Shown here piece by piece: positions 37,742 to 62,017 of a stretch of 64,000 nucleotides of DNA. A model generated the notes under the pieces. It searched no databases, was not told the DNA's origin, and saw only the letters and a list, made by a program, of their open reading frames with translations. Position numbers and translations under genes: made by a program. The first letter of the stretch is position 1. Every line of letters starts with the position of its first letter. Origin of the DNA: Bacteroidia bacterium (GTDB lineage Bacteria > Bacteroidota > Bacteroidia > Flavobacteriales_D > Cryomorphaceae). The DNA lies in the NCBI GenBank assembly GCA_030427905.1, contig JAUICL010000002.1, forward strand, positions 186,001 to 250,000. Direction: 5' to 3'.

Positions 37742-37766
37742 CGTGACTTTCTCATCCATACAGATC

Positions 37767-40700
37767 ATGGCCACAATCTTTTTTGGGATATACACTTTCT
37801 TTCGTCGACATAGGTGGGTTGGACTCTCCGCCTTATTGGCTTCCCTGATAATCATTGGTGTTGGAATCTCTCAATTGCGATTCACCGAAAATATTGTGGA
37901 TGTGCTGCCCCAGGATGAGCAGATTTCCCAGTTGAGCGAGACTATTGAGAATCTCAAGGTCAATGATCAGATTGTGGTCTTGGTGAGTCAGGAAAATGGC
38001 GAGCCAGATGAGCTCATTTCTTTTGCCGACATCCTTTTAGATTCAATAAGGGCCGGGCAAGAAGACTTGGTATCCGGAATAACCTACGAAATTGGGAATG
38101 ATCGATTAAACGATTTGTACGGCTTTTACGCTGAGAACATACCTTTTTACCTCACCGAAAATGACTACGATCGCATAGAAAGTCAGATGATTTCGGATTC
38201 GCTGGATGCTTTGGTGGGAAGAATGTACCGGGCTATGATTAGTCCTATGGGTATCTTTGGTTCGAAGTTTCTCATGTCTGATCCATTTGGCTTGGTTGGT
38301 GGTCAGCTAAAAAGAGCGCAGGAGCTTCGGATGGACGACAATATTACCCTGTTTCAGAATCGGTTTGTGAGTCAAGACCAGCGCAGTACCATGTTCTTTT
38401 TGCGCACGGCTAATCCCGCGAGTGAAACAGAGCACAATGGCCAGTTGGTAGACTTGCTAAACCGGATTCAGACGAACCTGAAATCGACGCATCCAGATAA
38501 AACCATTTCTTATTTCGGAAGCCCTGCCATGGCGGTGGCCAATGCACGACAGATAAAGCGAGATGTACAAGTTACGGTTAGTCTAGCGCTCGTGTTTCTC
38601 CTAGCCTTTATTGGCTTGTATTACCGCAACCTGATCGCGTTTTTCAAAGCGCTCCTGCCAGGGCTATTTGGGGCACTTTTGGCCTTGGGTGTACTGGGGT
38701 TTCTTCGAGATGGAATCTCCATTATTTCTCTCGCAATCGGGTCGGTTTTGTTGGGAATTACCATTGATTACGCCTTGCACTACCTGACTCATGCCAAGTA
38801 CGCCAAAAGTCAAAAAGACCTGTTTAAGGAATTGGGTTTCCCGACTCTTATATGCGCCCTCACATCTGCTTCGGCGTTTGGAGCTCTGCTTTTTATCAGG
38901 GCATCGGCTATGCAAGACTTAGGATTATTTGCGGGGGTGAGCGTTCTTGGAGCGGCCCTGTTTACCGTGCTTGTATTTCCGCATATCGTTGCAGTAGGAG
39001 GGCATTCTGATGAAAAAACCACCAAAGAGAACGTCGTAGAGCGGCTGATTCACGCACTTTCGTCATTCCCAATCCATCGAAAAAAGTGGGCACTGCTAGG
39101 TGTGGTGGCGATATCTATTGCTTGTCTGGTAAAATGGAATGATGTGAGATTTCAGGAAGATATGCTCAAGCTCAACTACACATCGCCGCAGTTGGCAGAA
39201 TCGGAGAGACGCATAAATGAAGTTTCTGATTTTGTTAGCGGAAATGTGTTTGGTACAGTCAGCGATACGGGTATTTCAGCTTTGCTGGATCAGAATCTAC
39301 ACTTTTCGCATACACTCGATAGCTTGGAGCGCGAAGGGGCAATTTTGGATTATGTAAACATAAACAGAATAATTCCTGACAGTCGGGTTCAAAGCGAAAG
39401 ACTAGCTAGGTGGAATGCCTTCTGGACTTCACACGATCGGGATGAGCTAATCAAATCATTGAATATTCGCGCCGAAGAGATGGGCTTTGTCGAAGGCGTA
39501 TTCTCGGAGTTTGAAACCTTGCTTGGCCGGGAGTACACATCAATATCGGAAGGTTCAATGGAGAAGGTCTGCGCCGTGTTTGGTGAAGATCTCCTTTCGC
39601 GGTATGGCGATAAGTACGCTGCGCTAACGGCTATAAAAGTCGATCAAGCTGAGAAGAAGCGGATTGCCGCCTTTTTTTCGGCTCAGCCAGGAGTTCAAAT
39701 ATTGGATCAAGCATCTATTGCGAGCAAACTGGTCAGTCTGCTTAACGAAGACTTCTCGCGACTTGTATCGTATTCGCTCTTGCTCGTTTTTGTCATTCTT
39801 CTCGTGGCTTATGGCCGGATAGAAATGGCACTCCTTTCGTTCATACCTATTGGCCTGAGTTGGCTCTGGGTACTTGGCATAATGGGCTGGCTGGATCTCC
39901 AGTTTAATGTGGTTAATGTCATCGTCTGCACGTTTATATTCGGAATAGGTATCGATTACAGCATATTCCTTCTGCACGGGCAAATCGAAAAGTACAAAAC
40001 CGACCGTGGTAGCCTGTCTAGAAGTAAGCGTTCAATCTTACTGTCCACCATTACCACCATCGCCGGATTGGGCGTTTTGATATTTGCCAAGCATCCGGCC
40101 ATCAAATCCATCGCGGCACTTACTTTGGTGGGAATATTTTCGGTGATCATTATCACATTTATCGTTCAACCCTTCCTTTTCAATCTCTTTATCGGGTCTC
40201 GTAAGAAGAAAGGGCAAATACCTTTTACATTTCAATCAGCGATCATCTCACTTATCGCCTTTTCCTATTTCTTTTGCGGGTGCATCCTTCTCTTTGTTCT
40301 CCGCTTTTTGTTTTACATGCCACTGGGATCCTTAAAGTTTCGCAAGCGGATTTTTCACCACGTCATACGCGCCTTCTGCTGGTCCTTGATGTACATTATG
40401 GTCAAGCTACCAAAGAATGTGATAGATCGAGAAAAAATGGATTTTTCGAGACCTTCGGTCATCATTTCCAACCACCACTCGTTTATTGATATTCTCTTTC
40501 TACTGAGCCTCGATCACCGCATTGTGATGGTGACAAATTCTTGGGTATTTAATTCGCCGTTTTTTGGGAAGTCTATTCAGTTTGCCGATTTCATTCACGC
40601 AGCAGATGGACTGGACGATCAAAAGGAACATATCCAAAGCGTGATTGATGATGGGTATAGCATCATGGTATTCCCTGAAGGCTCGAGATCGGCGAGTTCG

Positions 40701-41609
40701 AAACTTAGAAGATTTCACAAGGGTGCTTTCTACTTGGCGCAGGAGTTTAAGCTCGACATCCAGCCCATCATATTGCACGGTACATCATGGGCCTTACCAA
40801 AAGGTGATGATTTTCATTTGAAAAACAACGGTGTTTCGGTCAAGTTTCTGGATCGAATTTCGCTCAGCGACCCTTCCTATGGAGAGACCTATTCAGAGCG
40901 GACTAAAACTATATCGCGCCATTTTAAGAAAGCCTATCAGCAACACAAAGAATCTGTTGAAATACCTTCTTATTTCAATGAGTGGGTTCGCTATAATTTT
41001 ACTTTCAAAGGCCCCATTTTGGAGTGGTACTACCGCATTAAAACAAGGCTTGAAGGCCGGTATGACTTCTTCCATGAGCTCGTGCCGCGCGAAGCTCGCA
41101 TCATGGATTTGGGGTGTGGGTATGGGTTTATGTCCTACGCTCTGGCAATGAGCTCAGATCAGCGAAAAATCACTTCAATTGACTACGACATTGATAAAAT
41201 AAACATCGCTTCATCTTGCCCGAATATGCCGTCAAACTTGACGTTCGCTCGTGGCGATGTTATGAAATATCCGTTTGAAGAAACAGACGTTTTTATCTTA
41301 AGTGATGTACTGCATTATTTGACAGCGGCGGAGCAGACAGACTTGATGAAAAGGATGCTGGATAATCTCAGTGTCAGTGGTCAAATTATTCTGAGAGACG
41401 GTGATGCGGAAAAGGAAAAAAGGCAGAAAGGAACAGCGTTGACTGAGTTTTTCTCCACGAATTTTGGCTTCAACAAGACCAGGAATGATCTAAATTTTAT
41501 TACTCGTAATTTTGTCGAAGATTTTGCCCGTGAGCACAAATTAAACTTAACCGTGATAGACCGTTCCAAATACACTTCCAATCTGATATTTGTGTTGAAG
41601 AAAATGTGA
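37767..41609 (+). CDS. MMPL exporter - acyltransferase - methyltransferase fusion
   Basis: A 1280-residue fusion. Residues 1 to about 830 form an RND/MMPL transporter with two six-helix lobes, each with the proton-relay motif (GITIDYALH and GIGIDYSIF). Next comes a PlsC-type acyltransferase with NHHSFID (HX4D, about residue 902) and FPEGSRS (about 968). The C-terminal part (about 1075-1280) is a class I SAM methyltransferase with DLGCGYGFMS (about 1114). It probably exports or flips the polyene pigment and attaches or modifies its acyl part. MMPL and acyltransferase genes are usual in aryl-polyene/flexirubin loci; the three-part fusion is notable. It is the first gene of the plus arm and is separated from the next by one base. 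Confidence 0.88.
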   Translation: MATIFFGIYTFFRRHRWVGLSALLASLIIIGVGISQLRFTENIVDVLPQDEQISQLSETIENLKVNDQIVVLVSQENGEPDELISFADILLDSIRAGQEDLVSGITYEIGNDRLNDLYGFYAENIPFYLTENDYDRIESQMISDSLDALVGRMYRAMISPMGIFGSKFLMSDPFGLVGGQLKRAQELRMDDNITLFQNRFVSQDQRSTMFFLRTANPASETEHNGQLVDLLNRIQTNLKSTHPDKTISYFGSPAMAVANARQIKRDVQVTVSLALVFLLAFIGLYYRNLIAFFKALLPGLFGALLALGVLGFLRDGISIISLAIGSVLLGITIDYALHYLTHAKYAKSQKDLFKELGFPTLICALTSASAFGALLFIRASAMQDLGLFAGVSVLGAALFTVLVFPHIVAVGGHSDEKTTKENVVERLIHALSSFPIHRKKWALLGVVAISIACLVKWNDVRFQEDMLKLNYTSPQLAESERRINEVSDFVSGNVFGTVSDTGISALLDQNLHFSHTLDSLEREGAILDYVNINRIIPDSRVQSERLARWNAFWTSHDRDELIKSLNIRAEEMGFVEGVFSEFETLLGREYTSISEGSMEKVCAVFGEDLLSRYGDKYAALTAIKVDQAEKKRIAAFFSAQPGVQILDQASIASKLVSLLNEDFSRLVSYSLLLVFVILLVAYGRIEMALLSFIPIGLSWLWVLGIMGWLDLQFNVVNVIVCTFIFGIGIDYSIFLLHGQIEKYKTDRGSLSRSKRSILLSTITTIAGLGVLIFAKHPAIKSIAALTLVGIFSVIIITFIVQPFLFNLFIGSRKKKGQIPFTFQSAIISLIAFSYFFCGCILLFVLRFLFYMPLGSLKFRKRIFHHVIRAFCWSLMYIMVKLPKNVIDREKMDFSRPSVIISNHHSFIDILFLLSLDHRIVMVTNSWVFNSPFFGKSIQFADFIHAADGLDDQKEHIQSVIDDGYSIMVFPEGSRSASSKLRRFHKGAFYLAQEFKLDIQPIILHGTSWALPKGDDFHLKNNGVSVKFLDRISLSDPSYGETYSERTKTISRHFKKAYQQHKESVEIPSYFNEWVRYNFTFKGPILEWYYRIKTRLEGRYDFFHELVPREARIMDLGCGYGFMSYALAMSSDQRKITSIDYDIDKINIASSCPNMPSNLTFARGDVMKYPFEETDVFILSDVLHYLTAAEQTDLMKRMLDNLSVSGQIILRDGDAEKEKRQKGTALTEFFSTNFGFNKTRNDLNFITRNFVEDFAREHKLNLTVIDRSKYTSNLIFVLKKM

Positions 41610-41610
41610 T

Positions 41611-43137
41611 ATGGAGAATTACGATGTAATTATAATCGGGAGTGGGCTTGGTGGTCTAGAGTGCGGTGTAATTCTTGGAAGGGAAGGCTACAAGGTTCTC
41701 ATTTTGGAGAAGAATAAGCAGGTCGGTGGAAATCTCCAGATTTTCTCACGAGACAAGCGCATTTTCGATACTGGTGTGCACTACGTGGGTGGCCTGAACC
41801 CGGGCCAAAACCTACATACCTACTTCTCGTATTTCGGCATTATGGATGATTTGAAGCTTCACCAAATGAGTAAAGAAGCTTTTGATATTGTCTCCTTCGA
41901 AAATGATCCAATCGAGTATCCATACGGTCAGGGTTACGACCAATACATTGAAGGATTGGTCAAGTTGTTTCCTGAAGAGCGGGCGGGCATTGAGAAATTC
42001 TGTGACAAAGTGCGGGAAGTCTGTCAGGCATTTCCGCTGTATCAGCTTCAAGTAGACGACAACCCCGTTGGGTACAAAGATGTATTGAATCTAAACGCTG
42101 CAGATTTCATAGACTCCTGTACCGAAAATGAAAAGTTGCGGAAGGTCCTTGGGGGAACTAACCCACTTTTTGCGGGAATTGGAAGTAAAACGCCATTTTA
42201 CATTCTGGCGTTGGTCACCAATTCATACATCGAGAGTGCATGGAAATTTGTTGATGGTGGCGGGCAAATTGCAAAACTTCTGGTGAGAGAAATCAGAAAA
42301 GTAGGTGGAGAAATCAAGAAGCACGCCGATGTGGTGAAGATTGAGTTTGAAGATAAGCGAGCCAAATCTGTTGTGACCAAGTCTGGCGACCGCTACTACG
42401 GCGACATGATCATTTCTAACGTCCATCCCGCATATACCGTGAAAATGATAGAGCCGGGTATTTTAAAAAGGGCTTTCACAAAGCGGGTATCTCAGATGGA
42501 AAATACTTCTTCTGTTTTCATCTTGTACCTTGTTCTCAAAGAAGATTCTATGCCATTCATCAATTCCAACTACTATCACTACATCAACGATGATGTATGG
42601 GGTGGAGTAGATTACGATGAAGAAACTTGGCCACCTTCATATGCCGTTTTTTCCGGAGTTTCTTCCAAAACCAAGCAGTATTGCGATACCATGATCGTGA
42701 TGGCTTACATGAAAATGGAAGAAGTGGAAGAATGGGATTCTACTTTCAATACAGTGTCGGAAGGTGATGACCGCGGGGAGCGCTACGAAGAATTTAAAAA
42801 GGTGAAGGCAGAAAAACTGCTCGATGCCATGGAAGGGAAGTTTCCCGGAATAAGAGACCGCATAGAAAGTTACTACACGTCGACTCCTTTGACATACCGC
42901 GACTACATCAACACGCCTGGCGGTTCGATGTACGGAATTATGAAAGACGCTAGCGATCCGCTTAGATCATTTGTCTCACCGCGCACCAAGGTTCCTAACC
43001 TTCTATTCACAGGGCAAAACCTGAATATGCACGGTGTACTCGGCGTGACAATTGGTGCCGTGCAAACTTGCTCTGAAATTGTCGGACACAAATACCTCAT
43101 GGAGAAAATCCTATCAGCATCGAATGTCGAAGCTTAA
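41611..43137 (+). CDS. FAD-dependent CrtI/CrtISO-like oxidoreductase
   Basis: A 508-residue flavoprotein of the phytoene desaturase / carotenoid isomerase / retinol saturase superfamily: dinucleotide-binding motif IIGSGLGGLECGVILGREG at the N-terminus, FDTGVHYVGGL, and the C-terminal FAD motif NLLFTGQNLNMHGVLG. In a polyene cluster it may isomerise, reduce or desaturate double bonds of the chain. There is no transmembrane segment. It overlaps the C45 acyltransferase gene by 14 bp. Which of these reactions it carries out cannot be read from the sequence. Confidence 0.88.
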   Translation: MENYDVIIIGSGLGGLECGVILGREGYKVLILEKNKQVGGNLQIFSRDKRIFDTGVHYVGGLNPGQNLHTYFSYFGIMDDLKLHQMSKEAFDIVSFENDPIEYPYGQGYDQYIEGLVKLFPEERAGIEKFCDKVREVCQAFPLYQLQVDDNPVGYKDVLNLNAADFIDSCTENEKLRKVLGGTNPLFAGIGSKTPFYILALVTNSYIESAWKFVDGGGQIAKLLVREIRKVGGEIKKHADVVKIEFEDKRAKSVVTKSGDRYYGDMIISNVHPAYTVKMIEPGILKRAFTKRVSQMENTSSVFILYLVLKEDSMPFINSNYYHYINDDVWGGVDYDEETWPPSYAVFSGVSSKTKQYCDTMIVMAYMKMEEVEEWDSTFNTVSEGDDRGERYEEFKKVKAEKLLDAMEGKFPGIRDRIESYYTSTPLTYRDYINTPGGSMYGIMKDASDPLRSFVSPRTKVPNLLFTGQNLNMHGVLGVTIGAVQTCSEIVGHKYLMEKILSASNVEA

Positions 43138-44806
43138 AAAGATCCTTAAAATAGGTGGTATAGCCGTTTTGGCGCTCATCCTAATTCTAGTGGTGACCTT
43201 CGTGCTCAAGGTGCGTCTGCCCGAACCGGAAATTGGCGATTACGATCAGAATAGGGTGCAGGTAGAGTCTTTTGGTGATACGATGTATATCGCCAACAAC
43301 GGTTCCTGGCTGGTAGAGAATGACTACGAGACCTGGGAAATGTACCTGACAGGTGGTGCCTATGAGCGGGGACTTGTTTTTGGGGAAATGGCTCGGACCT
43401 TAAACGCTGAAAAGGAATCAGCTTTTGTAAGAGAAATCAATAATCGGGTTCCTTCTGAATCGTATCTCAATTTCTTGAAGTACCTGGTGGGCTGGTTTAA
43501 TCGCGATATGGACGAGTACATTTCTGATGAGTACAAGGAAGAGATTTTTGGAGCTTCGCGCTCGCTACCAGACTCCATGGACTATATCGCTCCTAAGTTT
43601 CACAGAGCGCTGAGTTATCACGGAGCCCACGATATCGGCCATGCTTTACAAAACATGAATCTGGTTGGTTGCACGGCCTTGGGCGTATGGGGCGAGCAAT
43701 CCGAAGACAGCTTGCTGCTTATTGGACGCAACTTTGATTTTTATTTTGGGAACGAATTTGCTAAAGACCCTATCCTGGCATTCGTCAATCCAGATAAGGG
43801 CTACCGCTTCGCATCCATCACCTGGGCCTGTTTCAGTGGCGTGGTTTCGGGTATGAATGAAGAAGGTCTGACAGTGACGTTGAATTCGGCGAAATCTTCT
43901 ATTCCATCAAAAGGTAAGACACCCGTATCGATCATTGCCAGAGAAATATTGCAGTACGCGTCTACGATTGATGAAGCTTTTGCCATTGCTGAGCGACACG
44001 AGTCTTTCGTTTCGGAATCTTTCTTGATCGGATCCAAAAATGATGGTCGCGCAGCAGTGATTGAAAAGACACCCGATGCTACTGTGCTCAAAGACGATTA
44101 TGATCAAGAGCTCGTTTTGACCAATCACTATACCAGTGAAGCGCTAAAAGATTCTCCAGAAAACCTTTCGTATTTGGAAGAAGGGGTGTCACAGTATCGG
44201 TACAACCGGGTAGGGGAGCTAAACCGTGAGATAGAGCGAGTAGGAGCGCGAGAAATGGCTTATATCATGCGCGATAGATTTGGTGCAGGTGGGGTGAATA
44301 TTGGCTTGGCGAATGAAAAAGCAATCAATCAGCTGCTTTGTCACCACTCGGTAATTTTTTCTCCATTCGAGCTCAAGATGTGGGTGTCGACGCCGCCTTA
44401 CCAGCTCGGAGCATATTTGGCGTACGATCTAAACGAAGTTTTTGCTGATCCTGCACCCCGCGTGCATTACGTGGATAGCTTGAAGATCAGCCCAGATCCC
44501 TTTCTCTACACCAAAAGGTACCAGGCATTTGAAGAATACGCAGCGATCAAAGATCGGATAGAACGATCGGTGAACACGGGTGCCATGCTCGAATTGGATC
44601 AAAGCGAAATTGAAGATTATGTGAGTGGAAATCCCGATGGTTATCTCACTTACTACTACCTGGGCAAGTATTTCGAAAGTAAGGGAGAATACGAAGAGGC
44701 CATTGAAGCTTTTGAAATGGGCCTGACCAAGTCCATCGCCCGGAAATCTGAAGAGCAGTATATGTCTGGACGAATCACCGAACTCAAAAAGTCGCTCCGT
44801 GATTAA
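43124..44806 (+). CDS. C45-type N-terminal-nucleophile acyltransferase with TPR tail
   Basis: A protein of 560 residues with an N-terminal membrane anchor (about 9-28, IGGIAVLALILILVVTFVL) and a domain of the acyl-CoA:6-aminopenicillanate acyltransferase / peptidase C45 family. The autoproteolysis site is LVGCTALGVW with nucleophile Cys183, followed by RNFDFYFGNE and GMNEEGLTVTLN. A C-terminal helical region (about 490-555, YYYLGKYFESKGEYEEAIEA) is TPR-like. In flexirubin loci a similar enzyme is thought to join the aryl-polyene acid to dialkylresorcinol by an ester bond; that role here is an inference. The start at 43124 supplies the anchor; it overlaps acpS by 8 bp. Confidence 0.82.
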   Translation: MSKLKKILKIGGIAVLALILILVVTFVLKVRLPEPEIGDYDQNRVQVESFGDTMYIANNGSWLVENDYETWEMYLTGGAYERGLVFGEMARTLNAEKESAFVREINNRVPSESYLNFLKYLVGWFNRDMDEYISDEYKEEIFGASRSLPDSMDYIAPKFHRALSYHGAHDIGHALQNMNLVGCTALGVWGEQSEDSLLLIGRNFDFYFGNEFAKDPILAFVNPDKGYRFASITWACFSGVVSGMNEEGLTVTLNSAKSSIPSKGKTPVSIIAREILQYASTIDEAFAIAERHESFVSESFLIGSKNDGRAAVIEKTPDATVLKDDYDQELVLTNHYTSEALKDSPENLSYLEEGVSQYRYNRVGELNREIERVGAREMAYIMRDRFGAGGVNIGLANEKAINQLLCHHSVIFSPFELKMWVSTPPYQLGAYLAYDLNEVFADPAPRVHYVDSLKISPDPFLYTKRYQAFEEYAAIKDRIERSVNTGAMLELDQSEIEDYVSGNPDGYLTYYYLGKYFESKGEYEEAIEAFEMGLTKSIARKSEEQYMSGRITELKKSLRD

Positions 44807-45194
44807 AGGCATAGGAAACGATATAGTGGAAGTAGCGCGATTGGAGAAATCCCTGACACGCGATGCTTTTAAAGAAAAAGTATTCTCGCAAGCCGAGATA
44901 CAGTACTGCGAGCAAAGTAGTGCTGGAGTTCAAAGCTACGCTGGGAAATTTGCAGCGAAGGAAGCCTTTTTTAAGGCTTTGGGAACGGGGTGGCGTGGAC
45001 AAATCGAGCTGTTCGAAGTAGAAGTCATAAACGATGAGCTCGGCAAGCCGCACATCCATTTGTCTTCGAGTTCAAAAGTGGCTTTGGGTGAATGGGGATT
45101 GTGTACATTTCACGTGGCTATTTCGCATGCGGCTGGCTTAGCCATTGCCCATGTAGTTGCTGAAAAAAACGAGAACGATGGAGATGCTGAATAA
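44799..45194 (+). CDS. acpS: holo-ACP synthase (4'-phosphopantetheinyl transferase)
   Basis: A 131-residue AcpS-type enzyme that transfers 4'-phosphopantetheine from CoA to the serine of ACPs. Family motifs are IGNDIVEVARLEKSL (metal-binding Asp) and FAAKEAFFKALGTG, with HVAISHAAGLAIAHV at the end. It starts with GTG overlapping the previous stop. A dedicated copy inside the cluster would activate its two ACPs. It overlaps the AMP-ligase gene by 17 bp. Confidence 0.93.
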   Translation: MIKGIGNDIVEVARLEKSLTRDAFKEKVFSQAEIQYCEQSSAGVQSYAGKFAAKEAFFKALGTGWRGQIELFEVEVINDELGKPHIHLSSSSKVALGEWGLCTFHVAISHAAGLAIAHVVAEKNENDGDAE

Positions 45195-46419
45195 GGTGTT
45201 GGCTGAAACTGTAGTGCGAGTCGCTCGTCAATCGCCTTACTACAAGAACGTTTATGAGCGCGAAGGAATTCAGTTGGGTGAGTCGATGACTGTGGCAGAT
45301 TTTGAACGCATACCCCTCACCACCAAAGACGATGTGCAGGCCCACGCCATGGATTTTTGGGCTGCCACCAAAACTGAGATTCTAGACTATTCGAGCACAT
45401 CTGGTACTCAGGGAAAACCAGTGACCGTGCCCCTTACCGATGGAGACTTGACAAGGCTCGCCGCTGTGGAAGCGCACTCATTCAAGCTAGCTGGAATAGG
45501 ACCTGATGATACCATTTTGCTCACGACCACCATCAACAGAAGGTTTATGGCGGGTCTCGCTTATCAGCTAGGAGCACGGGCAATCGGTGCGGGAATTGTC
45601 AGAACGGGTCCCGGACTGATTTCGCATCAAATTGAGACCATTTTTGATCTCACTCCAACCGTTATCATTGCCGTGCCATCGTTTATCGCCAAAATGCTGG
45701 AGTATGCAAAGGAAGCTGGAATAGACCTTGCGCAGTCATCCGTTCGGAAGATAATCTGTATCGGCGAGTCTATCCAGAATGCTGACTTCAGCCCCAATTC
45801 ACTTGCTCGTCACATCACAGATCAGTGGGATGTGGAATTATTCTCCACTTACGCTTCATCCGAGATGCAGACGGCATTCACATCGTGTAGCCAGCATATG
45901 GGGGGGCACGTGAACGAGAGTAAGATTTTCATTGAAATCCTAGATGACAATGGAGCTAAAGTTCCCGATGGAACAGTTGGTGAGTTGGTAATTACCACAC
46001 TTGGAGTCGAGGGTTTTCCGCTCATCCGGTTTCGGACGGGAGATGTATGCGCTTTGCACACCACGCCATGTCCTTGTGGAGACCCAAGTCCGCGGATTGG
46101 TCCGGTGCTTGGGCGTTTAAAGCAAATGATAAAATGTAAAGGGACTACCTGCTATCCTCAAGCTCTCTTTAATGTCCTGGACGAAGACCGAAGCGTAAAG
46201 GACTACCAAGTACAGGTGGAACACGATGATCTTGGCAATGACAAGGTGACCGTGTTTTACGTGGCAGGCCATGGATTTGACCCAGAAGACTTGAAACGAA
46301 AATTCAAGAGTCAGATCAGATTTACCCCGGAAATTAGATTGATTTCCGACGCCGATCTTCAAGCTCGAAAGCATCCTGAAGAAAATCGAAAAAGTCTCAG
46401 CTTTTTGGACTTGCGCTAA
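45178..46419 (+). CDS. AMP-ligase, phenylacetate-CoA ligase-like
   Basis: A protein of 413 residues of the ANL adenylating superfamily, PaaK branch: phosphate-binding loop DYSSTSGTQGKPV, LTTTINRRFMAGLAYQLGA, STYASSEMQTAFTSC and RFRTGDVCALH, with a short C-terminal domain. The likely role is to activate the aromatic starter acid (p-coumarate from the lyase) and load it on CoA or an ACP. The start is placed at ATG 45178, overlapping acpS by 17 bp. It closes the plus arm, 9 bp from the convergent halogenase-like gene. Confidence 0.85.
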   Translation: MEMLNKVLAETVVRVARQSPYYKNVYEREGIQLGESMTVADFERIPLTTKDDVQAHAMDFWAATKTEILDYSSTSGTQGKPVTVPLTDGDLTRLAAVEAHSFKLAGIGPDDTILLTTTINRRFMAGLAYQLGARAIGAGIVRTGPGLISHQIETIFDLTPTVIIAVPSFIAKMLEYAKEAGIDLAQSSVRKIICIGESIQNADFSPNSLARHITDQWDVELFSTYASSEMQTAFTSCSQHMGGHVNESKIFIEILDDNGAKVPDGTVGELVITTLGVEGFPLIRFRTGDVCALHTTPCPCGDPSPRIGPVLGRLKQMIKCKGTTCYPQALFNVLDEDRSVKDYQVQVEHDDLGNDKVTVFYVAGHGFDPEDLKRKFKSQIRFTPEIRLISDADLQARKHPEENRKSLSFLDLR

Positions 46420-46428
46420 AATACCACT

Positions 46429-47652
46429 CTAATTTTCGCTCGATAATATGTGAGCGAGTGTAGGTATGGTGCGCTTGTACTTTCGAAGGATTGAGTTCGT
46501 ATCGTCCCAAACATATCCCGCAAGAATTGAACAAATCTGATTTTTGATCATTTCATTCGGCTTTTCGGCAAAGAAAATTTTCTGAAGTGTCCCGTCATAC
46601 CACCAATCCACAAAACTTTTGAAGACATCTAATCCAGTTTGAATGGGAGCTAGGTACTCTTTATTCCAGTCAACTTTTTCACCCTTTATTTGCTTTGCAA
46701 CGAGTTCTCCGGCCATTTCGCCAGAGACCAATGCCATGGTAACACCAGACGAAAAAATAGGATCGATAAACCCGAAGGCATTTCCGGCAAGAACCCAGCC
46801 ATCACCAAAGAACGATTTGGTTTTACTGCCGTAAGCTCTTATCCGCTGAGCTGGAAATGTCTGGTCGTATTTTGCGTATCGATCGTGGTGCTCGCCGATC
46901 TCTTCGATCCATTTCTTGAGTTCATCATCTGCCGATTCGGCGCTATCGCATTGGGGTGAAACCACCCCTATGGAAGTAGAGCCGTCAGCAAAGGCAATTT
47001 CCCAAGACCAGGTGTCGGGCTTGTGGCAAATCACGTTGATCTTGTTTTTCCAATTGCCATGCCCGGTTTTATCAACGACATGCCCAAAAACGGCTTGCCG
47101 CGCGATCCCATCAATTGGCTCTTCGAGACCAAAAAGTCTGGAAAGGACTTTGCCATAGCCGCTCGCATCAATTATCTGCTGGGCTTTTACTTGATGCTCG
47201 ACTCCGGTTTTATCAGAAAATGACACTACTGAATTCCCACTTTTTTCTAAAACAACGTCGGTCACTGTGGCGCCGTAGATGATTTCAACGCCTTTTCGCT
47301 CCACTTCATCGGCAAGGATTTTATCGAATTCACTCCGCTTCACATGCCAAGCATGATCCCAGCCTGCAGTGTGTTGCACGCTAAAATCGAATTCGCAGAG
47401 CTTGTCTTCTGAATAAAATCGCGCTCCCGTTTTGATCAGAAAATTGGCCTTTTGGATTGCTGGCAAAAAGCCGCCTTTCTCCAAACTATCCAAGCACCTG
47501 GGCAAAAGGCTCTCACCAATCGAGAATCTCGGAAATTTACTCTTCTCGAGAATAATGGTGTCGATTCCCGCGTCTGCGAGAATGGAAGCTGCCATTGTTC
47601 CCGCTGGCCCCGCTCCTAAAATGACTGCCGTCCTATCTTTCATCTCTCTCAT
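46429..47652 (-). CDS. FAD-dependent halogenase-like oxidoreductase
   Basis: A protein of about 407 residues similar to flavin-dependent halogenases and related hydroxylases: GxGxxG motif ILGAGPAGTMAASILADAG, the hallmark FPRFSIGESLLPRCLD, a lysine in FLIKTGARFY at the position of the halogenase catalytic Lys, and WSWEIAF at the position of the WxWxIP signature (Pro replaced by Ala). It may chlorinate or hydroxylate the aromatic head; chlorinated flexirubins are known. ATG 47652 lies one base after the upstream stop; ATG 47643 is an alternative. It is the last gene of the minus arm. Confidence 0.8.
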   Translation of the reverse strand: MREMKDRTAVILGAGPAGTMAASILADAGIDTIILEKSKFPRFSIGESLLPRCLDSLEKGGFLPAIQKANFLIKTGARFYSEDKLCEFDFSVQHTAGWDHAWHVKRSEFDKILADEVERKGVEIIYGATVTDVVLEKSGNSVVSFSDKTGVEHQVKAQQIIDASGYGKVLSRLFGLEEPIDGIARQAVFGHVVDKTGHGNWKNKINVICHKPDTWSWEIAFADGSTSIGVVSPQCDSAESADDELKKWIEEIGEHHDRYAKYDQTFPAQRIRAYGSKTKSFFGDGWVLAGNAFGFIDPIFSSGVTMALVSGEMAGELVAKQIKGEKVDWNKEYLAPIQTGLDVFKSFVDWWYDGTLQKIFFAEKPNEMIKNQICSILAGYVWDDTNSILRKYKRTIPTLAHILSSEN

Positions 47653-47653
47653 T

Positions 47654-48706
47654 CTACTTTTTCTGGCACTTGAGAATGGTGTGGTAACTATCGCCGATAA
47701 GCTCAAATGTTTCCACCACTTTAAGTCCACTCGCATCGATCAATTTCTTCATCACATCGATGCTGTACATCTTCGAGTTACCATTGGCCATCGTCGTAAA
47801 ATAGAGCGATGTAGCGATTAGACAATACTCCGCAGCCGGGTATTTCTGGTTGTTGAAGAAAGGCTCCAAGATGTACACGTTGGTATTTTCATCTATCGCC
47901 TGATGCACATTCTTCAGGATTTGAAGTATTTCAGCTTTGGAGAAGCAATCTAGAAACTGACTCATCCATACGGTGTCGGCTCCTTGGGGAATTTTCTGGA
48001 AGGGGTCGAGTAGGTCTATGGGGTGATAGGTGACATGAGCACCAAGCCCTTTTTCTTCAATGTTTTGACGCGCTACCTTCAGCTGAATGGGTAAATCTAG
48101 CAAGGTCACAGCTAGATTTGGGTTCCGCTCTTTGCAAGCCATTGCCCACTTCCCAGTATTAGCACCAATGTCAAAAATGTGCCTTGGATTATCTTGAAAG
48201 ATGATGTCCATGGCATAGGGGAAGGCATCATCAGAATAGTAGTGATCGAATTCGAACCACGACTTTTTAGCTGGCTCAGGTAAGTCTGACAGGCCTTCAT
48301 ATACAGTGGGCCAATCGCCCAGGACTTTTAATCCCGCTGGTCGCCCTTCACGAATGCTTTCTGTTGTGAATTTGGCACCGTCATAGCACACATCTTTCAC
48401 GAAGTTCATATTGACTCTAGTCAACTCATCCATCAATATAAATACCCCGACTTTGGTGATTTGGAACGCGTCGCCTACTTCTTCAATCAGGTCTGATGCC
48501 AATGCGGCTTCGACTAAGATTTCTGCTCCATATTCGCTTATTTCACAGGTCTCTTGGATACTTCCTATCGTAGCACGCCCCCTTTTGGTTCGGATATGTT
48601 CCAATACGCCAAGTTCTTTCATAGCTACGATAGCTTGAAAAAATACAGGACCAAAAACCAGTTTCTGGGCTTTGTATTTGGCACTTAGTGCGGTTGGTGT
48701 TTTCAT
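47654..48706 (-). CDS. SAM-dependent O-methyltransferase
   Basis: A 350-residue class I methyltransferase of the plant-like O-methyltransferase/hydroxyneurosporene type: an N-terminal winged-helix dimerisation domain (about 20-110), SAM motif FDIGANTGKWAMACKE, then VTLLDLPIQLKVARQNI and WMSQFLDCFSKAEILQIL. It lacks the His of classical catechol enzymes at the place I can judge. It probably methylates the phenolic ring of the aryl polyene, as methylated rings are common in this pigment class. It is followed immediately by the halogenase-like gene. Confidence 0.85.
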   Translation of the reverse strand: MKTPTALSAKYKAQKLVFGPVFFQAIVAMKELGVLEHIRTKRGRATIGSIQETCEISEYGAEILVEAALASDLIEEVGDAFQITKVGVFILMDELTRVNMNFVKDVCYDGAKFTTESIREGRPAGLKVLGDWPTVYEGLSDLPEPAKKSWFEFDHYYSDDAFPYAMDIIFQDNPRHIFDIGANTGKWAMACKERNPNLAVTLLDLPIQLKVARQNIEEKGLGAHVTYHPIDLLDPFQKIPQGADTVWMSQFLDCFSKAEILQILKNVHQAIDENTNVYILEPFFNNQKYPAAEYCLIATSLYFTTMANGNSKMYSIDVMKKLIDASGLKVVETFELIGDSYHTILKCQKK

Positions 48707-48732: not shown

Positions 48733-49923
48733 CTAGTTTTCTAATCTACTGGGACCTTTCAGTCTCCTATACACTCCCAGACCGAGGTAAGTCACAGCAA
48801 AACCGATGACTCCGGCTATGGCTGCCAGCACAATGGCTCCCACGATGTACTGAACAAATCCATTGTGGATAGTAGCTAGTGATATCTCGTTTGAAAGATC
48901 AAGGTATTGTGGATCGTCGACAAAATTAGCTCCGACTCGATAGCTGGCATACAGAATGAAAGGTATCATGGGAGGGATGCTAATGTTTGCAGCTACAATA
49001 AATATGGCTTTGTTCAGTTTGAGAAAATGCGCGGTTGGAATTCCGACGATCAATTGATACCCCCAAATTGGGAAAATACCCATGAATAAGCCGAATCCGA
49101 TAGATGACGATTTCCTAAATACAGATTCTTCGCGGTTGAAAAGTTGCTCTCGGATAAATTTTCGAATGTTTTCTCTAGTGAGTTTTTTCAGAAATCGAAC
49201 GGGAATGTAATAGAGCAGTGCGAGCGTTACCAACACAGTGTTCAAAACGCTGATACGAGTAAAATCTCTAGAGGGCCTGAAATGAGAAATGCGTTCTTTC
49301 CCCTCGTCATAGTGCACTTTGATGGGTTCATTCACTACTGGAATTCCTTCCCAGGCTGCCTTCACGATCACTTCTATTTCAAATTCGAACTTGGTGGTCC
49401 AGTACGATCTCTCTTTCATGGCGTGGAGCGGGTAGAGCCTGAATCCCGACTGCGTGTCAGAAAGCTTAATTCCAGTTTCGAACCAGAACCAAAAATTGGA
49501 GAATTTGTTGCCGAAGCTGCTCTTGCCTGGGATGTGGTCTTCGTCGAGATTTCGCGACCCAATTATCAAAGAGCTAGGATCTTTGTCGGAAGCATCCACC
49601 AGGGCTTTGATGTCTTCCGGAAAGTGTTGACCGTCGCTATCGATCGAAATGAGCCGACCGTATTTCTGCGCTCTGGCCCACTTAAACGCCGAGCGCAGGG
49701 CTTGACCTTTCCCTTTGTTGGTCGGGTGAGTGATCACGGAAATTTGATTCCCAAAGCTCTCGAGAATTTCTGCGGTGCTGTCAGTGGCACCATCGTTTAT
49801 TACAACTAGGGGATACCCAAACTGCAGCGAATCCCGAATCGTTCGAGCAAGGGTTTTTTCGTTGTTGTACGTGGGTATGGCGATGCAAATAGCCAATGAT
49901 ATGTCATTCGAGAATTCGCTCAA
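48733..49923 (-). CDS. glycosyltransferase family 2 fused to DUF2062 membrane domain
   Basis: A 396-residue protein with an N-terminal GT-A domain like dolichol-phosphate mannosyltransferases (IAIPTYNNEKTLARTI, the VINDGATDSTAEIL motif, and SIDSDGQHFPEDI carrying the D-x-D metal site) and a C-terminal DUF2062 membrane domain (about 255-390, FGLFMGIFPIWGYQLIVG). It would transfer a sugar to a lipid or lipid-linked acceptor at the inner membrane. It is a recurrent member of aryl-polyene/flexirubin loci, although its product is not established. It overlaps the hotdog gene by 4 bp. Confidence 0.85.
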   Translation of the reverse strand: MSEFSNDISLAICIAIPTYNNEKTLARTIRDSLQFGYPLVVINDGATDSTAEILESFGNQISVITHPTNKGKGQALRSAFKWARAQKYGRLISIDSDGQHFPEDIKALVDASDKDPSSLIIGSRNLDEDHIPGKSSFGNKFSNFWFWFETGIKLSDTQSGFRLYPLHAMKERSYWTTKFEFEIEVIVKAAWEGIPVVNEPIKVHYDEGKERISHFRPSRDFTRISVLNTVLVTLALLYYIPVRFLKKLTRENIRKFIREQLFNREESVFRKSSSIGFGLFMGIFPIWGYQLIVGIPTAHFLKLNKAIFIVAANISIPPMIPFILYASYRVGANFVDDPQYLDLSNEISLATIHNGFVQYIVGAIVLAAIAGVIGFAVTYLGLGVYRRLKGPSRLEN

Positions 49924-50327: not shown

Positions 50328-50892
50328 AATTCAAAAACTGGTGGTTTAAGTCAATTTTACTCGGAACCGCATCACCGTTTTCGTAGGTCAAATTTAAACT
50401 TCTCTTCATAGGTTTTAGCCAGCCGCGCTCGCGAATTTCAAGGATTCTTTCACCTGATTCATTCAACTTGTAGCGCGCTTTGATTCCTTTCGATTTGACA
50501 ATAAAATCGGTATTCTTTTTCACCTTGACTTTCCGATTCCAAATCAAATTGGCTTGAGTGAGTAGTATGATGCTCTTTTCTAGTTCCGAAATGGCCCGTT
50601 TGCGTTTGCTCAGAGCGGCTATCGACTTTTTCCACCGCATACCTTCTTCCGAAATCTGTCCTTCTAGAAGTGTTGTTCCCATCTTTGCGATTAGATTTAC
50701 CTGAACAGCCGAGTCGAGCCTGTTGATCACAAAGAGTCCACTTACGATCACGTCTTTTCGCTCGAGTGAAATGTCGTAGACAAGTCCATCATCGGCGAGC
50801 TCTGCAAGGGGTGTTGTAGGCTGAGCGCAGAGATGCTCCCCCACCATCATGGCTAAGCACAGGAGAAGGATTTTATTTGAGCTCGAAAACAT
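50296..50892 (-). CDS. exported protein of unknown function next to LolA
   Basis: A protein of about 198 residues: signal peptide (ILLLCLAMMVGEHLCAQ), then a beta-strand-rich body with many basic and acidic residues (GLVYDISLERKDVIVSG, KVKVKKNTDFIVKSKGIKAR). There is no lipobox. I do not recognise the family. Its place directly after the LolA-like gene suggests a partner receiving or handling the same cargo, as the LolB/DUF3261-type proteins do in proteobacterial aryl-polyene clusters; this is inference. ATG 50892 is chosen to give a normal signal peptide. Confidence 0.55.
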   Translation of the reverse strand: MFSSSNKILLLCLAMMVGEHLCAQPTTPLAELADDGLVYDISLERKDVIVSGLFVINRLDSAVQVNLIAKMGTTLLEGQISEEGMRWKKSIAALSKRKRAISELEKSIILLTQANLIWNRKVKVKKNTDFIVKSKGIKARYKLNESGERILEIRERGWLKPMKRSLNLTYENGDAVPSKIDLNHQFLNFEIKLNKIDQ

Positions 50893-51502
50893 CTTTGGGT
50901 AGTGGATCATTCACTCGCGTATCACTAAACTCGATCAGGGTTGAATTGCCCTGGCTCTCCAGAATCTTGATTGAGCCCACCTGCAAATCTGTTTTGGCGA
51001 AAGCAATATTCATCTGAGTGATGTAATCTTTCATGAAAGCATCAGATGGCACCAACTCAACAATGTAATAATTCGCAGATTCCAGATAGGTTTTAGAAAA
51101 CTTAGGGTCGTCTAGAATAGTGCCTTCCACCGACGAAATAATAAGCTTATTGATGTCTTCGAATACTTTGTTGGCACTCATGTCGTACTGCGAAGACTTT
51201 CCTGCGTCGTCAATTGAAATTTGCCCGCCCTTCATGACAATGGTGTACGAGAATGGTTTTTGATAAGACCATCTCAGCGAGTTGGGTTTTTGAAAAGCGA
51301 TGCTTCCCTCCGAGATAATCGGATTTTTCATAACGCGCAATACCTTTTTCTGAATGAAATTGGCCTGCAGCGTATTTGTCGTTTTAGAAATCTCAAACAA
51401 GGCCTTTTTGAACGCTGTGGTATCTGACATGGCCTTGATGTCTTGGCCTATGGCATCAGTGATGGCGAAAGCCAGGAATAAAATTAAGGCGTAGTTCTTC
51501 AC
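50873..51502 (-). CDS. LolA-like periplasmic carrier protein
   Basis: A protein of about 209 residues with a signal peptide (YALILFLAFAITDAIGQ) and the LolA/LolB half-barrel fold: TTNTLQANFIQKKVLRVMKN, GSIAFQKPNSLRWSYQKPFS and LIEFSDTRVNDPLPKDVFEL. LolA carries lipoproteins across the periplasm; copies in aryl-polyene loci are thought to carry the pigment or its lipid conjugate to the outer membrane. GTG at 51502 is taken as the start because it gives a clean signal peptide and overlaps the previous stop (GTGA); an ATG at 51562 would add 20 charged residues before it. Confidence 0.82.
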   Translation of the reverse strand: MKNYALILFLAFAITDAIGQDIKAMSDTTAFKKALFEISKTTNTLQANFIQKKVLRVMKNPIISEGSIAFQKPNSLRWSYQKPFSYTIVMKGGQISIDDAGKSSQYDMSANKVFEDINKLIISSVEGTILDDPKFSKTYLESANYYIVELVPSDAFMKDYITQMNIAFAKTDLQVGSIKILESQGNSTLIEFSDTRVNDPLPKDVFELK

Positions 51503-52272
51503 GATTCGCTTATTTGTTTGAGTTTTCCGACTGGGAGAAAACTGAGATTTCTCGATTTGCAAATATTCAAAAACTGATCCAGAGTTTTGTCAGCACCATC
51601 GAGCCGATCGTGCAAGAGCACCACATCTCCTGCGCGCACTTGGTTTCCGAGCTTCTCGCCGAGAGCTTTCCCCGCTTTTTTTGCAGTGTCGTAAGATCTG
51701 ACATTCCATCCGACAAGTTGCATTTCAGTTTTGTGTAAGGCCTTTGCTATTCGGGGATTCATGACACCAAATGGGGGTCTGAAAAGTTCACAAGTTAAGG
51801 ACGTATGCTTTTGGATGATTTCATTCGTTTGCTCCATTTCCAAGACAATATCGCTGGGTGATTTTATCGGAAATGTATTGCTATGCGAAAACGAGTGGTT
51901 CCCGATTTCGTGGCCTTCATCTACTATTTGTTTGAAAATTTCGGGATACAGCTCGATGTTCTTCCCGATACAAAAAAAGGTAGCCTTTGCCTGGTGCTTG
52001 CGGAGCACTTCCAGCACGGGCAGTGTATTGGGGTGGGGGCCGTCATCGAAAGTAATGGCGATAGTCCCCGAATCACTACGACCTTTATGAAATCCCCGAG
52101 CGAAAAAATTGAGCCGAATAAAATAGACGCCACAAAAAATAATCAGCGCAAAGATTGACCCCATCCAAATTAGGATGGAATATGGAAGAATCTTCAAAGA
52201 ACTGAGCGCCACTGCCGCCCCGCACGCAAGGATGAAGATGAATAGGGAAATTAAGAAGGGGCTTTTTTTCAA
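51499..52272 (-). CDS. polysaccharide deacetylase-family protein (NodB domain)
   Basis: A 257-residue protein with two N-terminal transmembrane segments (about 5-50) and a NodB homology domain: motif 1 ITFDDGPHPNT, motif 2 HEIGNHSFSHSN, motif 3 RPPFGVM, then NVRSYDT and VVLLHDR. All metal-binding and catalytic residues of carbohydrate esterase family 4 are present, so it should remove N- or O-acetyl groups from a glycan or related substrate. Together with the glycosyltransferase it suggests that a sugar part belongs to the product or its carrier. It overlaps neighbours by 4 bp on both sides. Confidence 0.87.
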   Translation of the reverse strand: MKKSPFLISLFIFILACGAAVALSSLKILPYSILIWMGSIFALIIFCGVYFIRLNFFARGFHKGRSDSGTIAITFDDGPHPNTLPVLEVLRKHQAKATFFCIGKNIELYPEIFKQIVDEGHEIGNHSFSHSNTFPIKSPSDIVLEMEQTNEIIQKHTSLTCELFRPPFGVMNPRIAKALHKTEMQLVGWNVRSYDTAKKAGKALGEKLGNQVRAGDVVLLHDRLDGADKTLDQFLNICKSRNLSFLPVGKLKQISES

Positions 52273-57292: not shown

Positions 57293-58180
57293 TTAAGAGC
57301 GATGAGTCCCACCCGGAGCTTTGGTTGACCAAAAGTCGTAATAGTTAAACCATTGCAAAGGGTTTTCAAGGACTTTTCTTTCGAGGTGACGGGCGTACTC
57401 TATTACTATTTCTTGCGGTTTTTTGTTTGCCGTGAAAATTTCAGTTGAGCACAAATTGTAGGTTTTCCCTTTCCCTCTGAAGGCAAAAGTAAAAACGTAA
57501 TTGGATTTCAATGTGGAGGCCAGAGCAAAAGGCCCAACGGGAAAGTGTGCTTTGGCTCCGAGAAAGTCAACTTGCACTGTGCGACTTCCTTCCAAAAAGC
57601 GATCGCCGTGTAAGCAGATAAACTCTTTTTCTTCCAGGGCATTTTTAATGGCAAACAAGTGCGACATGTCTTCTTTCATCGGGATGATGTGGAGCTTTTG
57701 CTCGGACTTCACACCGTCTAAGAATGCTTTGATTTTTTCGTGTTCAACTGCGTGCATCAGTACATTGGTGCGGGAAATACGCTCGTCGAGCAGTTGTCCG
57801 GCTACTTCCCAGTTTCCAAGATGAGCGCTGTAGAGAAATCCGCCTTCATTGGCAAGTTTCAGCAGATTCTCTTCACCGTCGAATTTATATCGGAATTGGC
57901 CCTTTTTGCCACTGGCTATGGCCACTTTGTCGATCAGTGTTTTTCCAAAAACCACGAAATTCTGGTAGACAGAACTAAGCGACTTAAGACGAGAGTACCC
58001 AATTCGGGTTCTGAAAAAGGAGTAACTGGATTTTGTAGCCTTTGGGGCAAACACAAAAAAATAAAGTGCTACGAAACGAAGCACCGTGTAGGCTACACCT
58101 AGTCCGAATGTGTTGATGAGAAAAACGAAAATGCGATAACCAGCGAGGCCGCCACGAGTCTTTCCCTTCCAGGAAGACAT
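57293..58180 (-). CDS. LpxL/HtrB-like lysophospholipid acyltransferase
   Basis: A 295-residue membrane-associated acyltransferase with an N-terminal hydrophobic segment (about 14-50), the catalytic motif SAHLGNWEVAGQ and a second block HGDRFLEGSRTVQVDFLG. The family attaches acyl chains from ACP to lipid acceptors, as in lipid A late acylation. In this locus it may place the aryl-polyene chain on a lipid or sugar-lipid acceptor. It overlaps the ACP gene by 1 bp (TAATG), which supports direct use of that ACP. Confidence 0.85.
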   Translation of the reverse strand: MSSWKGKTRGGLAGYRIFVFLINTFGLGVAYTVLRFVALYFFVFAPKATKSSYSFFRTRIGYSRLKSLSSVYQNFVVFGKTLIDKVAIASGKKGQFRYKFDGEENLLKLANEGGFLYSAHLGNWEVAGQLLDERISRTNVLMHAVEHEKIKAFLDGVKSEQKLHIIPMKEDMSHLFAIKNALEEKEFICLHGDRFLEGSRTVQVDFLGAKAHFPVGPFALASTLKSNYVFTFAFRGKGKTYNLCSTEIFTANKKPQEIVIEYARHLERKVLENPLQWFNYYDFWSTKAPGGTHRS

Positions 58181-60418: not shown

Positions 60419-62017
60419 TTAAATGGTGATGGGACTCTCATTTTTCATGTAGTCCTTTATCTGTTTTAACTCTTTGTACATCGCTGAGTCAGATTCAAAT
60501 CGACCGACTATCGAGCGCATGTTTTCATACGTTTGTTTCGATATGGGCGAAAGGCCATCTGCCTTCTTTAAATAGTCGATGGCTTGAACGATCGAGAGCA
60601 TCTCAATCGCCAAAACTTCAAAAGCGTTGTCGATAACCTTGCTGGCCATCGTGGCTGCATTGGTGCCCATGCTCACAATGTCTTGATTGTCATTGTTGTT
60701 GGGGATGCTGTGAACGTACATGGGGTTGCTGAGCGTTTGATTCTCGGCCGTGGTGGATGTGGCTGTAAACTGCACACCCTGCATCCCAAAATTGAACCCG
60801 AGTTTACCCAAATTTACAAAAGGTGGGAGTATACCATTGAGTTTTGGGTTCATCAAAAAGTTTATCTGGCGCTCGGCCAACATGGTCAACTTTGTAATGG
60901 CAATTTTGAGCTTATCCATTTCGAAAGCGACGTAGTCTCCGTGAAAATTTCCACCGTGGTATACATTGCGGCTTTCCACATCGATAATCGGGTTGTCGTT
61001 AGCTGAATTTATTTCTTCAACCAGCGCTTTTTTACATTGCTCAATGGTTTCAAGAATGATTCCCGATATCTGCGGCACGCACCGAATTGAGTAGTACTCC
61101 TGAACTTTTTCGTCCAATACTTTCTGATCTGTCAAGCCTGCGTATAACTGCTTTTCACGCTTTTTGATATAGGTGCTCTTGCCCAGATTCTGATAGATCG
61201 AATCGGCGATGCGCTGTTGGCCTTTGTGCTTTTTGGCCCCATTGAGTTGAGGTGAGAAATAATCGTCGTAAGCGTCGATCATTTCAGCGATCATGATGGT
61301 GGCTAAAGTCGACCACTGGATGGCTCGCTCGGCATATACCGTATTGACAACACCGATACCAGTCATTACACTGGTTCCGTTCATCAAGGCCAGGCCTTCT
61401 CTCAATTTGATTTGCATTGGAGCGATGCCCAGCGACTTAAACACTTCGGCAGTAGGCCGCTTTTCGCCTTTGTAAAGCACTTCACCTTCACCGAGCATAA
61501 CGAGTGCCAGATGGGCAAGCTGAACAAGATCTCCGCTGGCACCTACACCACCGTGAGCAAAGATTACTGGGGTTACATCCATATTGATCATGTCGACCAA
61601 TACCTTGATGGCAGAAGGGTGTACACCTGACTTGCCAAGGCAAAGGGTATTCAATCGAGCTACCATCGATGCTTTAGCGGTGCGCTGATCAAGATGATCA
61701 CCCATCCCAGAAGAGTGGCTCCGAATCAGGTTTTCTTGAAGCGCTTTCTCTTCTTCGGGCTCAATGCGGTACGGAGCCATAGGCCCAAAACCGGTATTGA
61801 TTCCGTAAATGATTTTATCTCTGGAAAATTCCGTCAGGAAGTCAAAGCTCTCCTGTACGATCGCCTCCACCTTTGGATCAATTTTCACTCCTGACCTTTC
61901 AAATAGAATTGCCTTCAGCTCTGCAAAGCGCAAATCTGTTTCCCCAATCATAACCATATCGCCAATATTACGATCTGTGTTGGAATGATCATCGCGGGTT
62001 GGGTGATTAGTTTCCAT
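60419..62017 (-). CDS. aromatic amino acid ammonia-lyase (probable tyrosine ammonia-lyase)
   Basis: A 532-residue HAL/PAL family lyase that removes ammonia from an aromatic amino acid. The MIO prosthetic group would form from Ala160-Ser161-Gly162 in HGGVGASGDLVQLAH; the catalytic Tyr is in YGINTGFGPM (Tyr71), and the selectivity region reads NLIRSHSSGMG. The SIPNNNDNQDIVSMG and YHGGNFHGDYVAFEMDKL blocks are intact. From memory it is very close to the Flavobacterium johnsoniae tyrosine ammonia-lyase of the flexirubin pathway, so p-coumarate is the likely product. The first 20 residues may be untranslated; Met21 or Met23 are alternative starts. It heads the minus arm. Confidence 0.88.
   Translation of the reverse strand: METNHPTRDDHSNTDRNIGDMVMIGETDLRFAELKAILFERSGVKIDPKVEAIVQESFDFLTEFSRDKIIYGINTGFGPMAPYRIEPEEEKALQENLIRSHSSGMGDHLDQRTAKASMVARLNTLCLGKSGVHPSAIKVLVDMINMDVTPVIFAHGGVGASGDLVQLAHLALVMLGEGEVLYKGEKRPTAEVFKSLGIAPMQIKLREGLALMNGTSVMTGIGVVNTVYAERAIQWSTLATIMIAEMIDAYDDYFSPQLNGAKKHKGQQRIADSIYQNLGKSTYIKKREKQLYAGLTDQKVLDEKVQEYYSIRCVPQISGIILETIEQCKKALVEEINSANDNPIIDVESRNVYHGGNFHGDYVAFEMDKLKIAITKLTMLAERQINFLMNPKLNGILPPFVNLGKLGFNFGMQGVQFTATSTTAENQTLSNPMYVHSIPNNNDNQDIVSMGTNAATMASKVIDNAFEVLAIEMLSIVQAIDYLKKADGLSPISKQTYENMRSIVGRFESDSAMYKELKQIKDYMKNESPITI

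Follow-up and report, generated by a model that had tools for sequence, protein, structure and literature searches.

A flxU-type gene with fused exporter, acyltransferase and methyltransferase domains in a Bacteroidia bacterium, and the uneven fate of its methyltransferase domain

The flexirubin cluster of Chitinophaga pinensis contains an export stretch, flxP-flxU, that ends in a 'predicted exporter' (Schoner et al. 2014, PMC3992019). For the aryl polyene (APE) cluster of E. coli, Johnston et al. proposed a route in which ApeD and ApeJ link the polyene to an anchor in the membrane, with ApeM as its exporter (PMC8253772). A search of the open literature found no paper on a trifunctional MMPL protein or on flexirubin together with MMPL. 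Here we describe a flxU-type gene in a stretch of 64,000 nucleotides, hereafter the window, from a Bacteroidia bacterium of the Cryomorphaceae lineage (assembly GCA_030427905.1, contig JAUICL010000002.1, positions 186,001 to 250,000, forward strand). Its product joins an MMPL exporter, a PlsC-type acyltransferase and a class I S-adenosylmethionine (SAM) methyltransferase in one chain. An earlier note on this DNA had considered the added methyltransferase a possible novelty, which it is not: the architecture stands at the flxU position, is the usual form in flexirubin clusters and is described at annotation level in RefSeq, where the proteins are named trifunctional. The architecture alone is thus ordinary for its cluster; the surprise lies in the methyltransferase domain, whose fate differs between lineages. 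The new finding is that, judged by its motifs, the fused domain is intact in this bacterium yet decayed in every Flavobacterium-type relative sampled.

The gene (Table 1) is a single uninterrupted frame of 1280 amino acids from the ATG at position 37767, with a stop codon ending at 41609, as the earlier note had read it; the same frame is already open from a GTG at 37743. Pfam models for MMPL (two stretches), acyltransferase and methyltransferase all match above their cut-offs and follow each other in the order typical of the FlxU-type architecture. The possibility of a frameshift or assembly error fusing separate genes, raised in the earlier note, is negligible and was rejected because independent genomes encode the full-length chain in a single frame; such end-to-end homologues occur in many families, in about 100 genomes besides the window. 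The surrounding cluster can be assigned to the flexirubin type with FlxA, FlxY and LolA2 at or over their NCBIfam cut-offs, so the gene does lie inside a pigment cluster, as had been supposed.

Homologues at E 1e-60 or better were found in 33 of 395 Bacteroidota genomes drawn evenly across the phylum, the window's own included. One open frame runs across MMPL, acyltransferase and C-terminal domain in 30 of the 33. In another genome (G394) the third part is reduced to a stub, which makes 31 of 395 genomes carrying the chain, and two (G118 and G347) have the transporter alone. In a species-wide genome collection at least 503 stretches encode relatives when an alignment is the query, but scanning its contigs with a single protein gave no match. 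The transporter in G118 (L036:8574-11874) is a stand-alone protein of 812 amino acids, with a cupin/JmjC-like gene, recognised by eye, in place of the acyltransferase and methyltransferase; this genome also lacks DarB.

The chain was modelled by AlphaFold2 (AF2) as two overlapping pieces, transporter with acyltransferase (pLDDT 82, pTM 0.69) and acyltransferase with methyltransferase (pLDDT 88.9, pTM 0.84). The first model has 12 long helices at transmembrane (TM) positions and two periplasmic lobes, in agreement with the complete two-lobe MMPL transporter of the earlier note, and its nearest solved folds are HpnN (5khn) and MmpL3/4/5. Asp/Tyr pairs are present in TM4 and TM10, which we take to be the proton relay by analogy with MmpL3 and HpnN. 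These marks together predict an MMPL/RND lipid exporter. The TM10 residue Asp730 is Asp in all homologues checked. At TM4, Asp334 (codon 38766-38768) is replaced by Asn in 53 of the 79 homologues with an intact methyltransferase, and the relay may be halved in such exporters.

The acyltransferase matches PF01553 at residues 885-1002 with 64 bits (cut-off 23), and its modelled fold aligns with Thermotoga PlsC (TmPlsC, 5kym) over 240 residues at 2.9 A (Z 25.1). An active PlsC-type (LPLAT) acyltransferase is predicted from this fold, the NHxxxxD and FPEGxR motifs and the N-terminal two-helix motif, a hydrophobic segment at residues 822-877. NHHSFID, FPEGSRS and the methyltransferase motif DLGCGYG are all intact, as the earlier note had said. 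The two-helix motif is assumed to lie in the inner leaflet, as in Thermotoga PlsC. Because 12 TM helices precede it, the C-terminal half with acyltransferase and methyltransferase is expected on the cytosolic side, the compartment of SAM and acyl-ACP.

The third part matches Pfam Methyltransf_25/31 at residues 1110-1217 with about 40 bits (cut-off 27), and its modelled fold reaches a Z of about 19 against solved class I SAM methyltransferases. The acidic residue and GxGxG of motif I, in a Rossmann-like fold, predict an active enzyme of this class. The state of the domain was scored by SAM motif I (GCG[YF]G) and the DVLHY-type motif in an alignment of 111 homologues. Of these, 79 were intact, 6 half-decayed (motif I kept, later motifs lost), 25 decayed in motif I and 1 cut by a contig end, counts that favour full-length, intact proteins since the best 80 of at least 503 loci were taken by similarity. 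In the evenly drawn 395-genome sample 6 domains are intact and 25 decayed. All 79 intact sequences share D1114, G1116, C1117, G1118, G1120, D1139, D1180, H1183 and Y1184. Among their most distant pairs the identity is 0.46 in the methyltransferase domain versus 0.33 in the transporter. Intact copies of the domain are nowhere less conserved than the transporter, and by these comparisons strong constraint acts on it in Chitinophaga-like lineages. When the intact domain is used as a profile, matches at E 1e-30 or better among the 395 genomes lie only within this fusion, and no E. coli APE protein is matched.

The decayed set consists of two families (f7 and f6, guessed to be Flavobacteriaceae and Weeksellaceae) and G394, and includes every Flavobacterium-type relative sampled. 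Here the relation is reversed, with an identity of 0.36 in the methyltransferase domain versus 0.50 in the transporter. The Flavobacteriaceae-type remnant of about 155 residues has lost the SAM motif but still continues the reading frame; within it K1081, K1092 and G1120 remain invariant, and profile comparison identifies it as the same domain as the intact methyltransferase (97% probability, E 1e-11). On a tree of the transporter and acyltransferase parts four state changes are needed, with single placements made unsure by long branches (G394, the window's own and L010). The half-decayed domains (L102, L109, L117, L125, L128 and L129) keep motif I but have lost the DVLHY-type motif and most of a T-E-S-F-N stretch. 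They offer useful intermediates for work on how a fused domain decays.

The cluster already encodes another candidate for ring methylation, FlxJ, a relative of ApeB by sequence. Of the 50 genomes with an intact fused domain, 45 have FlxJ (two as fragments), against none of the 6 with a half-decayed domain and 3 of the 25 in which it has decayed. Decay thus goes with FlxJ absence as an association only, because the counts share ancestry and several genomes are metagenome-assembled (MAGs), as are many of those without FlxJ. Three exceptions (G202, G226 and G394) keep FlxJ beside a decayed domain and show that it is able to persist without the fused methyltransferase. Conversely, the fused domain is intact but FlxJ absent in the L107 branch and in two Mucilaginibacter species. 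Each of these is the closest relative of sequences with a half-decayed domain, so FlxJ may have been lost before the domain decayed. Both FlxJ (in pieces in one genome) and an intact fused domain are present in the other Chitinophaga genomes that were examined. The identification of the fused domain as the aryl head-group methylase ApeB was also considered and is unsupported, since its profile finds no APE protein and FlxJ is 42% identical to ApeB.

The protein is probably the FlxU-type exporter of a flexirubin-like aryl-polyene cluster, in which lipid-bound pigment would be exported in connection with cytosolic acylation and methylation. The PlsC-like domain, at the cytosolic face of the inner membrane, would place the completed aryl-polyene acyl chain on a lipid acceptor, as proposed for ApeD. 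The MMPL part, driven by the proton gradient, would move the lipid-bound pigment from the inner membrane to periplasmic LolA2 and on towards the outer membrane. The fused methyltransferase would methylate an intermediate of the same cytosolic assembly, held beside acyltransferase and exporter. Coupling of modification and export at the membrane, suggested in the earlier note, is plausible on the modelled topology. Several points weigh against this proposal. The literature search found no experiment on any FlxU. Descriptions of flexirubin make it an ester of a dialkylresorcinol and not a glycerolipid, so the acceptor of the acyltransferase may differ in pigment clusters. Most of the many lineages with a decayed methyltransferase domain carry DarB above the family cut-off, so the fused methyltransferase is not needed for a flexirubin pathway as such. 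Moreover, one methyl from methionine enters the flexirubin of C. pinensis (+3 Da), and FlxJ could account for it. With one methyl in the product and two methyltransferases in the cluster, either one of the enzymes leaves no methyl in the product or both cooperate.

The fused domain may be a tailoring enzyme of the pigment head group, acting with or after FlxJ and freed from selection once head-group methylation was lost. This is a possible explanation, though a doubtful one. It would account for the distribution of FlxJ given above and for the mixture of intact and half-decayed domains in Mucilaginibacter and the L107 branch, as if FlxJ went first. However, the single methyl of C. pinensis flexirubin and the E. 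coli head group, methylated by ApeB, the only methyltransferase of its cluster (PMC8253772), argue against it; the three genomes with FlxJ and a decayed domain do not fit either, and the non-independent counts with many FlxJ-less MAGs reduce the weight of the association. It is rather unlikely that the fused domain instead N- or O-methylates a lipid or sugar carrier of the polyene, not the pigment. Searched against solved structures, its sequence matches phosphoethanolamine N-methyltransferases best, and NodS is on the list too, although matches of class I methyltransferases say little on substrate. The polysaccharide deacetylase of the NodB kind and the GT2 glycosyltransferase of the cluster would suit a glucosamine-lipid route, but both persist in genomes where the fused domain has decayed. 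If a carrier were the substrate, the released flexirubin would bear no methyl from this enzyme, which agrees with the one methyl seen.

A mainly structural domain, acting as a brace or docking site for the acyltransferase with dispensable catalysis, is improbable. The in-frame remnant with its three invariant residues speaks for such a role, but the nine residues invariant in every intact homologue, in a domain more conserved than the transporter at large distances, speak against it. Within the proposal of an FlxU-type exporter, we tentatively suggest a second, so far unseen methylation by the fused domain, of a lipid carrier or a transient pigment intermediate. It would have been lost several times while the remnant stayed fused, so that the family comprises true enzymes and pseudo-methyltransferases.

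These results bear on the attachment of flexirubin-type pigments to their partner and on their transport to the outer membrane. That the cluster encodes two methyltransferases and the product is reported to carry one methionine-derived methyl is a directly testable piece of this problem, and the graded states of the domain in nature, from intact through half-decayed to decayed, point to where the role of the second methyltransferase can be sought.

Table 1. Features of the flxU-type gene and its neighbours in the window
Feature	Coordinates	Strand	Basis or remark
flxU-type gene: MMPL exporter / PlsC acyltransferase / class I SAM methyltransferase, 1280 aa	37767..41609	+	Frame, Pfam, homologues, gene order, RefSeq naming
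MMPL/RND transporter, residues 1-815	37767..40211	+	Pfam MMPL; AF2 fold; profile vs ApeM E 1e-41
Asp334-Tyr335, TM4 position of MMPL proton relay	38766..38771	+	Residue comparison; role by analogy
Asp730-Tyr731, TM10 proton-relay position	39954..39959	+	Residue comparison; role by analogy
PlsC-type acyltransferase with N-terminal two-helix motif, residues 818-1045	40218..40901	+	PF01553; TmPlsC fold; profile vs ApeD E 8e-22
Acyltransferase motif NHHSFID, residues 902-908	40470..40490	+	N902, H903, S905, D908 invariant in 30 homologues
Acyltransferase motif FPEGSRS, residues 969-975	40671..40691	+	F969, P970, E971, R974 invariant in 30 homologues
Class I SAM methyltransferase domain, residues 1076-1280	40992..41606	+	Pfam Methyltransf_25/31; fold matches; profile scan
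SAM motif I DLGCGYG, residues 1114-1120	41106..41126	+	Alignments; decayed to HLxxDYG in Flavobacteriaceae-type homologues
Motif DVLHYL, residues 1180-1185	41304..41321	+	D, H, Y invariant in 79 intact homologues
FAD oxidoreductase, CrtI/CrtD type, flxV position	41611..43137	+	Conserved gene order
C45-type autoproteolytic acyltransferase/hydrolase, N-terminal signal anchor, flxW position	43124..44806	+	Start = first in-frame ATG
Holo-ACP synthase	44799..45194	+	
FlxY, putative acyl-CoA ligase	45157..46419	+	NF053551, 520 bits = its cut-off of 520
FlxJ-family methyltransferase, relative of ApeB	47654..48706	-	NF053543 E 1e-133, under its cut-off; 42% identity to ApeB over 350 aa
GT2 glycosyltransferase with DUF2062, counterpart of ApeJ N-terminal part	48733..49923	-	Pfam and profile comparison
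LolA2, periplasmic carrier of flexirubin clusters	50873..51562	-	NF053544, 205.6 bits vs cut-off 125
LpxL-like acyltransferase, counterpart of ApeJ C-terminal part	57293..58180	-	Profile comparison
FlxA tyrosine ammonia-lyase	60419..62017	-	NF053541, 825 bits vs cut-off 700

Other genomes keep the order GT2, fusion, FAD oxidoreductase, C45, AcpS and FlxY. In the window the last four genes follow directly downstream, and the GT2 gene lies at 48733 in the opposite-strand run and not directly upstream. Further genes around the fusion encode KAS, ACP, thioesterase and dehydratase-like proteins and the polysaccharide deacetylase. The C45 enzyme probably acts outside the cytoplasm because it has a signal anchor in the window and a lipoprotein signal in Flavobacteriaceae-type genomes, and it could form the polyene-resorcinol ester after export. 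The lipoprotein signal (e.g. LTSCG) was seen in place of the signal anchor in L036, L048, L049, L052 and L053. A FAD-dependent halogenase-like gene (46429-47736, minus strand) overlaps FlxJ and possibly serves ring chlorination; relatives occur in some other flexirubin clusters (L039, L048).

The best DarB match in the window's genome (L139:6094-7938, minus strand) scores 378 bits against a cut-off of 550. It is the only DarB-like gene there and encodes 614 amino acids with a haem-oxygenase-like tail. DarG gave no match in this genome, but the DarG control also matched nowhere. Judging from these sequences, this organism may make a pigment other than a dialkylresorcinol ester.

Compared with known systems, the transporter part resembles E. 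coli ApeM (profile E 1e-41) and the acyltransferase part ApeD (profile E 8e-22), which in E. coli are two separate proteins without a counterpart of the fused methyltransferase. ApeB matches FlxJ over 350 amino acids, not the fused domain, and ApeJ corresponds to two separate window genes, GT2-DUF2062 and LpxL-like. The lipid exporters HpnN and MmpL3-5 share the 12-TM RND fold with two periplasmic lobes; their identity is only about 12-15%, and the solved chains have neither acyltransferase nor methyltransferase fused to them. FlxU of C. pinensis, equated by cluster position, has the same place between a glycosyltransferase and the flxV-flxY genes, and the window-type gene order is consistent with flxT-flxY of that cluster (PMC3992019). 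Eight or more Chitinophaga genomes (including C. filiformis DSM 527) have full-length homologues with an intact methyltransferase, and the window protein is about 36% identical to other Chitinophaga proteins. The RefSeq 'trifunctional MMPL family transporter/lysophospholipid acyltransferase/class I SAM-dependent methyltransferase' of Aureispira anguillae (WP_264793640.1) has the same parts in the same order, is 37.5% identical over the whole length and is followed by FAD oxidoreductase, C45 and AMP-binding genes. The window protein is a diverged member of this RefSeq family and does not differ from it in kind.

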